DNA of 55,179 nt. Origin: Bacteroidota bacterium (GTDB lineage Bacteria; Bacteroidota; Ignavibacteria; Ignavibacteriales; Ignavibacteriaceae). Where the stretch lies: positions 1 through 55,179 of the forward strand of contig JAKAJV010000029.1 in NCBI GenBank assembly GCA_021813585.1. The letters are read 5' to 3'. Below the pieces are notes generated by a model. It saw nothing but the letters and a program-made list of their open reading frames with translations. It ran no database searches and was not told the origin of the DNA. Position numbers and translations under genes: made by a program. Shown here piece after piece: positions 18,905 through 19,439 of this stretch; position 1 is the stretch's first letter, and each line of letters begins with the position of its first letter.

Positions 18905-18974
18905 GCTGGGAATAGCTCAGCTTGCCTACCAGCAGGCAGGTTGGTAGAGCGTCCGATACAATCTGGAATGTCGC
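18905..18974 (+). pseudogene. Truncated tRNA-Gly-like copy 0 with D-loop insertion
   Basis: It keeps the acceptor 5' strand with one extra T (GCTGGGAA) and both D-stem strands (GCTC and GAGC). A 20-nt hairpin-forming insertion sits in the D-loop at 18921-18940 (TTGCCT...AGGCAG). A 16-nt imperfect hairpin (18952-18967) replaces the anticodon arm. ATGTCGC follows and then non-tRNA sequence, so the T-arm and 3' acceptor strand are absent. Confidence 0.8.
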
Positions 18975-19034
18975 ATAAAATAAAAAATTAAATAGTAATT
19001 CTTAATTTTTAGTTCTTTTAATTTGTGATGATAT

Positions 19035-19084
19035 GCGGGAATAGCTCAGTTGGTAGAGCGTCCCGATACAATCGGGAATGTCGC
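19035..19084 (+). pseudogene. Truncated tRNA-Gly-like copy 1
   Basis: It matches the first 25 bases of tRNA-Gly exactly. The anticodon arm is replaced by the 17-nt perfect palindrome TCCCGATACAATCGGGA (19061-19077), then ATGTCGC returns to the tRNA sequence. The T-arm and 3' acceptor strand are absent. Confidence 0.82.
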
Positions 19085-19145
19085 ATAAAAATAAAAAATG
19101 GAATTTTCATTCTTAATTTTTGGTTCTTTTAATTTATGATGATAT

Positions 19146-19195
19146 GCGGGAATAGCTCAGCTGGTAGAGCGTCCCGATTTTATCGGGAATGTCGC
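19146..19195 (+). pseudogene. Truncated tRNA-Gly-like copy 2
   Basis: As copy 1, with one D-loop change (AGCTGG instead of AGTTGG). The palindrome is TCCCGATTTTATCGGGA (19172-19188), so the stem is kept and the centre differs. Confidence 0.82.
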
Positions 19196-19255
19196 ATAAA
19201 ATAAAAAATTAAATAGTAATTCTTAATTTTTAGTTCTTTTAATTTGTGATGATAT

Positions 19256-19305
19256 GCGGGAATAGCTCAGTTGGTAGAGCGTCCCGATTTTATCGGGAAT
19301 GTCGC
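19256..19305 (+). pseudogene. Truncated tRNA-Gly-like copy 3
   Basis: The 5' part is identical to tRNA-Gly, with the same palindrome as copy 2 (19282-19298) in place of the anticodon arm. It ends after ATGTCGC. Confidence 0.82.
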
Positions 19306-19366
19306 ATAAAAATAAAAAATGGAATTTTCATTCTTAATTTTTAGTTCTTTTAATTTATGATGATAT

Positions 19367-19439
19367 GCGGGAATAGCTCAGTTGGTAGAGCGCAACCTTG
19401 CCAAGGTTGATGTCGCGGGTTCGAGTCCCGTTTCCCGCT
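19367..19439 (+). tRNA. tRNA-Gly(GCC)
   Basis: A full 73-base cloverleaf. The acceptor is GCGGGAA/TTCCCGC, the D-stem GCTC/GAGC, the anticodon stem CAACC/GGTTG with loop TTGCCAA (anticodon GCC), and the T-arm GCGGG-TTCGAGT-CCCGT. The discriminator is T and CCA is not encoded. It is the terminal unit of the tandem array and is followed by a terminator. Confidence 0.97.

Follow-up and report, generated by a model that had tools for sequence, protein, structure and literature searches.

tRNA genes are usual integration sites of mobile elements, and partial tRNA copies arise by integration. In Escherichia coli, the rtT/tyrT tandem repeats also hold part of a tRNA beside a tRNA gene, as does the locus described here; the part retained there is the tRNA 3' end. 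SegB of phage T6 cuts in tRNA genes at the motif RAWTSGAAC, and the amplification of a tRNA segment in tandem is reported to depend on it (PMC13096335). The reverse complement of this motif, GTTCSAWTY, is T-loop-like, a resemblance of motif only.

The window analyzed here is the whole stretch of 55,179 nucleotides. On it (contig C105 of a 4.54-Mb genome, G000), four copies of the 5' part of tRNA-Gly stand in a row and are followed by the intact tRNA-Gly(GCC) gene at 19367–19440. This arrangement had been proposed for 18905–19439 in a sequence-only reading and is confirmed by the sequence, ARAGORN, and alignment. Our analysis suggests that the array is probably an ORF-less relic or satellite of small mobile elements of tRNA genes that carry a GIY-YIG nuclease resembling SegB, amplified in tandem. 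The features of the array are as follows; where no program is named, they were read from the sequence.

18905–18974, + strand: unit 1, the outermost, a decayed tRNA-Gly 5' copy with the degenerate hairpin TCCGATACAATCTGGA; it folds unlike units 2–4
18921–18940, + strand: palindromic D-loop insert of unit 1, CTTGCCTACCAGCAGGCAGG
19035–19084, + strand: unit 2, tRNA-Gly positions 1–26, hairpin, and ATGTCGC (Rfam tRNA, 21.2 bits, under the gathering threshold of 29)
19061–19077, + strand: 17-nt hairpin TCCCGATACAATCGGGA replacing the anticodon arm (27–43) of unit 2
19146–19195, + strand: unit 3, tRNA-Gly positions 1–26 with one mismatch, hairpin, and ATGTCGC (Rfam tRNA, 20.8 bits)
19172–19188, + strand: hairpin TCCCGATTTTATCGGGA replacing the anticodon arm of unit 3
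19256–19305, + strand: unit 4, tRNA-Gly positions 1–26, hairpin, and ATGTCGC (Rfam tRNA, 24.6 bits)
19282–19298, + strand: hairpin TCCCGATTTTATCGGGA replacing the anticodon arm of unit 4
19367–19440, + strand: intact tRNA-Gly(GCC), the source gene (ARAGORN; Rfam, 72 bits)
19456–19473, + strand: terminator-like stem-loop 3' of tRNA-Gly (one found; shuffles give a mean of 1.0)

The most striking feature of the array is the hairpin. The units had been described as stopping after ATGTCGC, a description that overlooked a substitution: in units 2–4, the native anticodon arm CAACCTTGCCAAGGTTG is exchanged, 17 nt for 17 nt, for a hairpin of the TCCCGATNNNATCGGGA type (TCCCGATACAATCGGGA or TCCCGATTTTATCGGGA). 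Seven further tRNA letters, ATGTCGC, follow the hairpin and lead into an AT-rich spacer, which is a copy of the tRNA-Gly gene's own upstream flank. The acceptor 5' strand and D-arm, said to be nearly unchanged in all four units, are so in units 2–4, which differ from the gene at 0 or 1 of 26 tRNA letters, and not in unit 1, which is decayed and interrupted by the D-loop insert. Measured at the end of the D-arm, the unit period is 109–111 bp, in agreement with the ∼110 bp first given; the distance between units 1 and 2 is 129 bp when measured before the D-loop insert of unit 1. Flank and tRNA together (84–86 nt) align between the units and the gene with 2–6 mismatches, and this, with the 0–1 mismatches over 26 tRNA letters, indicates that the array is not a product of chance.

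The 57-nt flanks preceding the tRNA parts are of two types, one shared by units 2 and 4 (no differences) and the other by unit 3 and the intact gene (one difference), with 6–7 of 57 positions differing between types. The spacers are thus diverged between types, as had been claimed, and not within them, where 0–1 differences are found. Because the two types are each near-identical internally, the array represents a double duplication and not spacers that have each decayed on their own. Grouping by hairpin loop gives other pairs than grouping by flank, with ACA in units 1 and 2 and TTT in units 3 and 4. Repeated flanks, two flank types, and the pairing of the loops all support the recent tandem duplication suggested earlier. 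The tRNA-Asp array of the same genome (L078) has the same plan, with a similar D-loop palindrome in its outermost unit.

Units 2–4 are predicted to fold as a three-way junction comprising an acceptor-like stem, the D-arm, and the hairpin (−21.1 kcal/mol, z −3.2 to −3.8), and unit 1 folds differently (z −1.5). With RF00005 scores of 20.8–24.6 bits, units 2–4 lie below the functional-tRNA threshold of 29 bits; unit 1 gives no Rfam tRNA match up to E = 1. The Rfam search of the region returned tRNA matches and weak chance matches only, with no match to the rtT family up to E = 1 within 18300–20000. The promoter match reported ahead of the array could not be reproduced, with no sigma-70 consensus in 18700–19900 (shuffles mean 4.4).

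The same operon contains an altered copy of a second tRNA, tRNA-Cys:

19566–19638, + strand: full-length tRNA-Cys copy with positions 39–56 replaced by a hairpin (Rfam, 30.1 bits)
19604–19620, + strand: hairpin CCCCGATTTAATCGGGG within the tRNA-Cys copy
19723–19799, + strand: intact tRNA-Cys(GCA) (ARAGORN)

This copy, between tRNA-Gly and the intact tRNA-Cys, scores just above the 29-bit cut-off, and its anticodon stem and T-stem are broken. The interval 39–56 is occupied by perfect hairpins with different stems in G000, G007, G025, and G033, such that pairing appears to be kept rather than sequence. We read the operon in 11 of 12 congeners, all with 600 bp upstream and two with only 241 and 117 bp downstream. 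This comparison of close relatives, proposed in the earlier reading, finds the Gly copy in G007 only; the other 10 of the 11 read are without it. In G007 the order is a Gly unit, tRNA-Gly, a Cys copy with 39–56 replaced, tRNA-Cys, a 79-codon GIY-YIG gene, and a Cys 3' fragment that carries the hairpin CCCCGATTTTATCGGGG. The G007 Gly unit has D-loop hairpins and an altered anticodon arm, and it breaks off directly after the T-loop GGGTTC. GIY-YIG sequence 3' of tRNA-Cys is found in addition in G002 and G012 of the same genus, as partial matches of 53 codons (shortened) and 26 codons (cut by the contig end), respectively, and in G025 of the same family. In an Ignavibacterium sp. (L188), this operon also contains a Gly array, and no GIY-YIG match was obtained there.

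Partial copies are not confined to this operon. They lie within 600 bp of 16 of the 41 tRNA genes tested in this genome (Gly-GCC, Cys, Gly-TCC, Thr-GGT, Ala-CGC, Ser-GCT, Met, Lys-TTT, Pro-TGG, Pro-CGG, Leu-CAA, Asp, Asn, Arg-CCT, Ala-GGC, and Ser-TGA), the raw count being 17 before tRNA-Trp was discounted as a cross-match to Thr fragments. A CCCG-type hairpin is present at 15 of the 16, Ser-TGA being the one without. Copies upstream of a tRNA gene hold its 5' part and copies downstream its 3' part, with a few fuller ones. The same test gives raw counts of 1 of 32 tRNA genes in congener G001 and 10 of 33 in G013, a one-contig genome that belongs to a different genus in the family. The trait thus varies between genomes and is not an artefact of assembly. 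Four loci of G013 (L340, L343, L346, and L347) are long 3' arrays with periods of ∼92–145 bp; a pair of small hairpins occupies the T-loop in these arrays, in the style GTTC-TTCCGAAGGAA-TCCCTATGGGA-GAATCC. In G000, contigs C109 and C113 (L070 and L071) end in or near the same array of tRNA-Leu(CAA) 3' fragments, with 94-bp units and an uncertain copy number.

Searches for the end of the D-arm followed by a CCCG hairpin, which favor hairpins directly 3' of GGTAGAGC with CCCG stems, match 20 of 294 genomes of the class; in our judgment, 12 of the 20 hold true tRNA copies and the other 8 were matched by chance in coding sequence, and the reversed control gave 6 matches in the same genomes. A stricter pattern yields at least 80 loci and at least 115 matches among GTDB species genomes. 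With phyla assigned by us according to the record titles, the 80 loci listed comprise 53 from Bacteroidota, 6 from CPR, 4 from Planctomycetota, 3 from Kiritimatiellota, 2 each from Ignavibacteriota, Balneolota, Neomarinimicrobiota, and Verrucomicrobiota, and 6 singletons. For 14 of these 80, the nearest 1.5 kb does not include an intact tRNA that has this D-arm; some of the 14 lie near contig or stretch ends, and some are apparently chance matches. The same layout is found in an isolate, Algoriphagus aquaeductus T4. Viral contigs gave two matches only: L305, apparently an ordinary tRNA cluster, and L304 (IMGVR_UViG_3300048038_000024), in which three ORF-less, hairpin-bearing tRNA-Lys units are followed by the tRNA and a GIY-YIG ORF. 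The L304 contig is either a phage vehicle or mis-binned host DNA.

Since the hairpin-pattern searches are biased, we drew a sample of 50 GIY-YIG loci without regard to tRNAs or hairpins, consisting of the best match in each of 30 class genomes and 20 further matches in rank order, with close neighbors and one twin left out; these are high-scoring genes and not a random sample. Eighteen lie within 400 bp of a tRNA gene (p ∼3e-22 at ∼1.2% expected, a rough estimate), all 18 on the same strand as the tRNA, and 32 are not near a tRNA. At every one of the 18 tRNA-linked loci there is a displaced fragment of that tRNA, mostly beyond the ORF. A perfect hairpin of at least 6 bp is present in the fragment at 12 of the 18, 11 of them of CCCG/CTCCG type and one (L261) of another type, and is lacking at L265, L266, L271, L279, L287, and L300; for this count the fragment regions were set by hand, and an AT-rich hairpin beside the L300 fragment was left uncounted. 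Approached from the hairpin side, 34 of the 80 listed loci have a GIY-YIG tblastn match, some of them partial; in place of a matched control, a density of ∼10 such genes per 4 Mb suggests a chance expectation of a few percent.

The complete element is a free-standing GIY-YIG gene of ∼80 codons that has an intact tRNA gene on one side and a displaced fragment of that tRNA on the other. The order in the 5' form is 5' flank and tRNA up to the T-arm, ORF, and rebuilt intact tRNA, and in the 3' form it is intact tRNA, ORF, and 3' piece. At L141 the ORF stop is flush with the 5' end of the rebuilt tRNA, and in several 3' forms the last codons and the stop of the ORF are supplied by the displaced tRNA. 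In the genome studied here, GIY-YIG genes lie directly 3' of tRNA-Asn and of tRNA-Pro-CGG, and in both cases a 3' fragment with a hairpin comes next, together with a duplicated flank. ORF-less and ORF-bearing units stand side by side at single loci (L147, L156, L163, and L304). The window array likewise has displaced partial copies beside an intact tRNA of the same isotype. However, it has no ORF, and PF01541 (GIY-YIG) has no match on C105, the 11 GIY-YIG matches of the genome all being on other contigs, so the array is a probable derivative of such elements rather than a member, and its link to them rests on architecture and relatives. The earlier reading, partly supported in other respects, had overlooked this link.

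GIY-YIG genes also occur in other settings. Two in tandem, the second shortened, lie directly 3' of tmRNA, with CCCGA palindromes before each (L131; G000:C2:41364-42020). Genes at L130, L256, and L264 belong to a clade that is not tRNA-linked and are flanked by CCCGC...GCGGG palindromes, and the ORFs at L132 and L137 lie amid long GGTCATC...GATGACC palindromic repeats, one repeat being inside the ORF. The gene at L281 is beside a group I intron, the classical arrangement.

On a tree of the nucleases, the 18 labels together require 31 changes, compared with 55.8 when shuffled (0 of 200 shuffles as low). Lys-ttt requires 2 changes against 15.1, and the tRNA-unlinked rows 7 against 29.1. Lys, Gly-gcc, Asp, Asn, Pro-ggg, and Ser cluster by isotype; Ala-ggc, Pro-cgg, and Cys-gca require as many changes as shuffled labels. 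The tree was built on 96 columns and leaves 46 of 91 inner branches open, and near-copies add to the clustering. Five truncated GIY-YIG sequences were dropped, nine rows were labeled manually according to the displaced fragment or the RNA next to the gene, and many of the tRNA-linked rows come from hairpin-pattern loci.

The hairpin TCCCGATNNNATCGGGA itself occurs at 31 sites in the genome (0 in the reversed control), which on reading comprise 26 partial tRNA copies, 1 RNase P RNA, 2 terminator-like sites, and 2 others. The common stems in displaced copies are TCCCGA...TCGGGA and CTCCGA...TCGGAG. Among 48 hairpins at the anticodon arm that are anchored left and right by tRNA sequence, the replaced stretch is exactly 27–43 in 35; the search pattern favors this position and so fixes the left edge in part, but leaves the right edge unconstrained. 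The window's own units are outside the 48, their right-hand match being too short for anchoring. In 34 of 79 cases, compared with 11.8 on shuffling, the hairpin loop shares at least 4 nt with the native anticodon loop, as in Pro-CGG (ATTCGAT), Leu-TAA (ATAAAAAT), and Gln (CTTTG). This retention gives p = 6e-5 when grouped by 18 anticodons and p = 4e-4 without Lys, and is absent in 5 of the 18 groups; the grouped test omits L175, whose tRNA assignment is doubtful, and 8 rows whose hairpin interior was already represented for the anticodon in question. Little of the native loop survives in the window hairpins, 3 nt in the case of unit 2. The anticodon arm often seems to be rewritten rather than exchanged for a foreign insert, and the idea that a foreign palindrome is inserted whole is weakened by both the exact replacement of the arm and the retention of loop letters.

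Similar hairpins are also found in variable parts of the RNase P RNA and at terminator-like sites of these genomes, so the hairpin may belong to a separate process. The RNase P RNA at L064 (G000:C38:7144-7607) has several CCCGA-type hairpins in its variable parts, and congeners differ in whether they have an extra hairpin 3' of the P12 region. Palindromes of the D-loop and T-loop occur in tRNA copies as well. We considered RAYT proteins as mobilizers of the hairpin and rejected them: the genome has two RAYT-type (Y1_Tnp) genes, TCCCGATNNNATCGGGA is absent from the surrounding stretches read, and 26 of the 31 exact hairpins are in tRNA copies. One CCCGAC palindrome lies ∼240 bp before the match of one Y1_Tnp gene.

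The 5' copies lose homology close to the T-loop. In 50 of 53 usable locus–tRNA pairs (the T-loop being located by GTTC, and 5 of 58 pairs omitted for too short an alignment), homology is lost between −8 and +6 nt from the C of GTTC, in nine of the 53 exactly at this C; three breaks are at −11 or −13, and none is further 3'. In the window array, homology ends 6 nt before the C and not at it, and the tRNA-Gly T-loop GTTCGAGTC is an imperfect fit to the SegB motif.

Taken together, these observations fit a model in which a nuclease resembling SegB would cut tRNA genes, and repair from a donor would import the ORF with a replacement tRNA segment, leaving the host with one working tRNA and the old half displaced. 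Repeated breaks at the same locus might also duplicate the flank and 5' tRNA in tandem without the ORF, as seen in the window. The hairpin, we infer, would disarm the displaced copy as a tRNA and break up the direct repeat; in some ORF-bearing units, a hairpin at the end of the ORF may supply the stop codon and a 3' hairpin. Several observations count against this model: the lack of an ORF in the window array and of a GIY-YIG match on C105, the end of homology 6 nt before the C, the imperfect fit of the tRNA-Gly T-loop to the SegB motif, the poor loop retention in the window and in 5 of the 18 anticodon groups, the isotypes that do not cluster, the 32 of 50 GIY-YIG loci away from tRNAs, and the 6 of 18 fragments with no perfect hairpin. 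Moreover, the model does not account for the near-constant hairpin stem across phyla, and the association of ORF and array could reflect a shared preference for tRNA loci.

In another account, which we regard as unlikely, slippage or recombination simply duplicated the tRNA 5' ends in tandem, and the copies were afterwards invaded by mobile REP/RPE-like palindromes of a kind that inserts into structured RNA genes, with the nucleases as bystanders. It accommodates the duplication of the flanks together with the tRNA part, the palindromes of the D-loop and T-loop, and the CCCGA-type hairpins of terminator-like sites and of RNase P RNA, where a hairpin varies among congeners. However, invading palindromes should insert, and in 35 of 48 cases there is instead an exact replacement of 27–43; the loops tend to keep native letters (34 of 79 against 11.8), the two RAYT-type genes are unflanked by this hairpin, and this account gives no reason why a displaced fragment is found at every one of the 18 nuclease loci linked to a tRNA. 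Selection on a small RNA was raised in the sequence-only reading. In the form considered here, processing of the tRNA-Gly transcript would release the units as mimics of a tRNA without its T-arm, acting as decoys or regulators; this is, in our estimate, quite improbable. In its favor are the predicted fold of units 2–4 (z −3.2 to −3.8) and the keeping of pairing rather than sequence at the tRNA-Cys interval in four genomes (G000, G007, G025, and G033). Because 10 of the 11 congeners read lack the Gly copy, a conserved small-RNA role for the array appears unlikely on sequence grounds, and the selected-RNA account is further opposed by the decay of unit 1, by the fact that it depends on the tRNA whether the copies are 5' or 3' parts, and by the difference between partial copies at 16 of 41 tRNA genes here and at 1 of 32 in G001.

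Remnants of integrative elements, that is, attachment-site duplications, would suit the general role of tRNA genes as integration sites with partial copies as a known outcome, but we consider them very improbable here. An attachment duplicate keeps the tRNA 3' end and has an integrase nearby, whereas the window array keeps the 5' part, upstream of the gene; no integrase-like ORF was seen by eye in the ORF list for 14–25 kb, and the ∼110-bp units have no cargo. An ordinary integrase duplication was rejected on the tRNA half retained, in accord with the earlier reading, and at other tRNA genes the copies are 3' parts downstream. An assembly or read artefact might be suspected from the contigs that end in or near such arrays (C67, C85, C109, and C113), but has negligible probability given the copies at 10 of 33 tRNA genes in the single contig of G013 and the shared layout of isolates such as Algoriphagus aquaeductus T4.

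Beyond this locus, we hold as evenly balanced the proposal that bacteria (Bacteroidota/Ignavibacteriota, CPR, and others) host a new class of homing elements specific for tRNA isotypes. Such an element would rebuild the host tRNA, rewrite the displaced tRNA half by turning its anticodon stem into a CCCGA/TCGGG hairpin that encloses remnants of the former loop, and give rise to ORF-less satellite arrays, the window array among them, that are amplified by the nuclease in trans. No description of such bacterial elements was found in the literature searched, which covers subscription literature in part. If the proposal is true, a large share of the tRNA genes in some bacteria (16 of the 41 tested here) is marked by a small selfish nuclease family, the difficulty of inserting into an essential RNA gene is overcome through reconstruction of that gene, and the "pseudo-tRNA" debris of these genomes receives a single explanation. 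It raises testable questions about the tRNA position at which each nuclease cuts, the reason for the conversion of the displaced anticodon arm to a hairpin, and the making of arrays in trans. For tRNA annotation, many hairpin-bearing copies are to be met in these phyla.

The homing-element reading shares features with described systems. REP/RAYT and Rickettsia palindromic elements also place short palindromes at many genomic sites, some within genes (PMC3733652); in contrast, 26 of the 31 exact hairpins here are in tRNA copies, anticodon-arm hairpins are mostly exact replacements, and the RAYT-type genes are unflanked. With SegB, a free-standing GIY-YIG homing endonuclease of T4/T6, the parallel is a nuclease gene beside tRNA genes, together with the tRNA-gene cleavage and nuclease-dependent amplification reported there (PMC13096335, PMC2988022). 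The bacterial elements differ in their spread over many phyla, their ∼80 codons, their partial clustering by isotype, and a displaced tRNA fragment that commonly has an anticodon-arm hairpin; cleavage is proposed for them. The mobile endonuclease ORFs of fungal mitochondria (Allomyces atp6; Glomus atp6, atp9, cox2, and nad3) concern mitochondrial protein genes, and the available portion of the source reports neither hairpin substitution nor ORF-less tandem arrays. In these genes, too, an ORF within an essential gene brings a functional gene end and displaces the native one (PMC3630166); such replacement-end ORFs are an architectural parallel to the tRNA elements.
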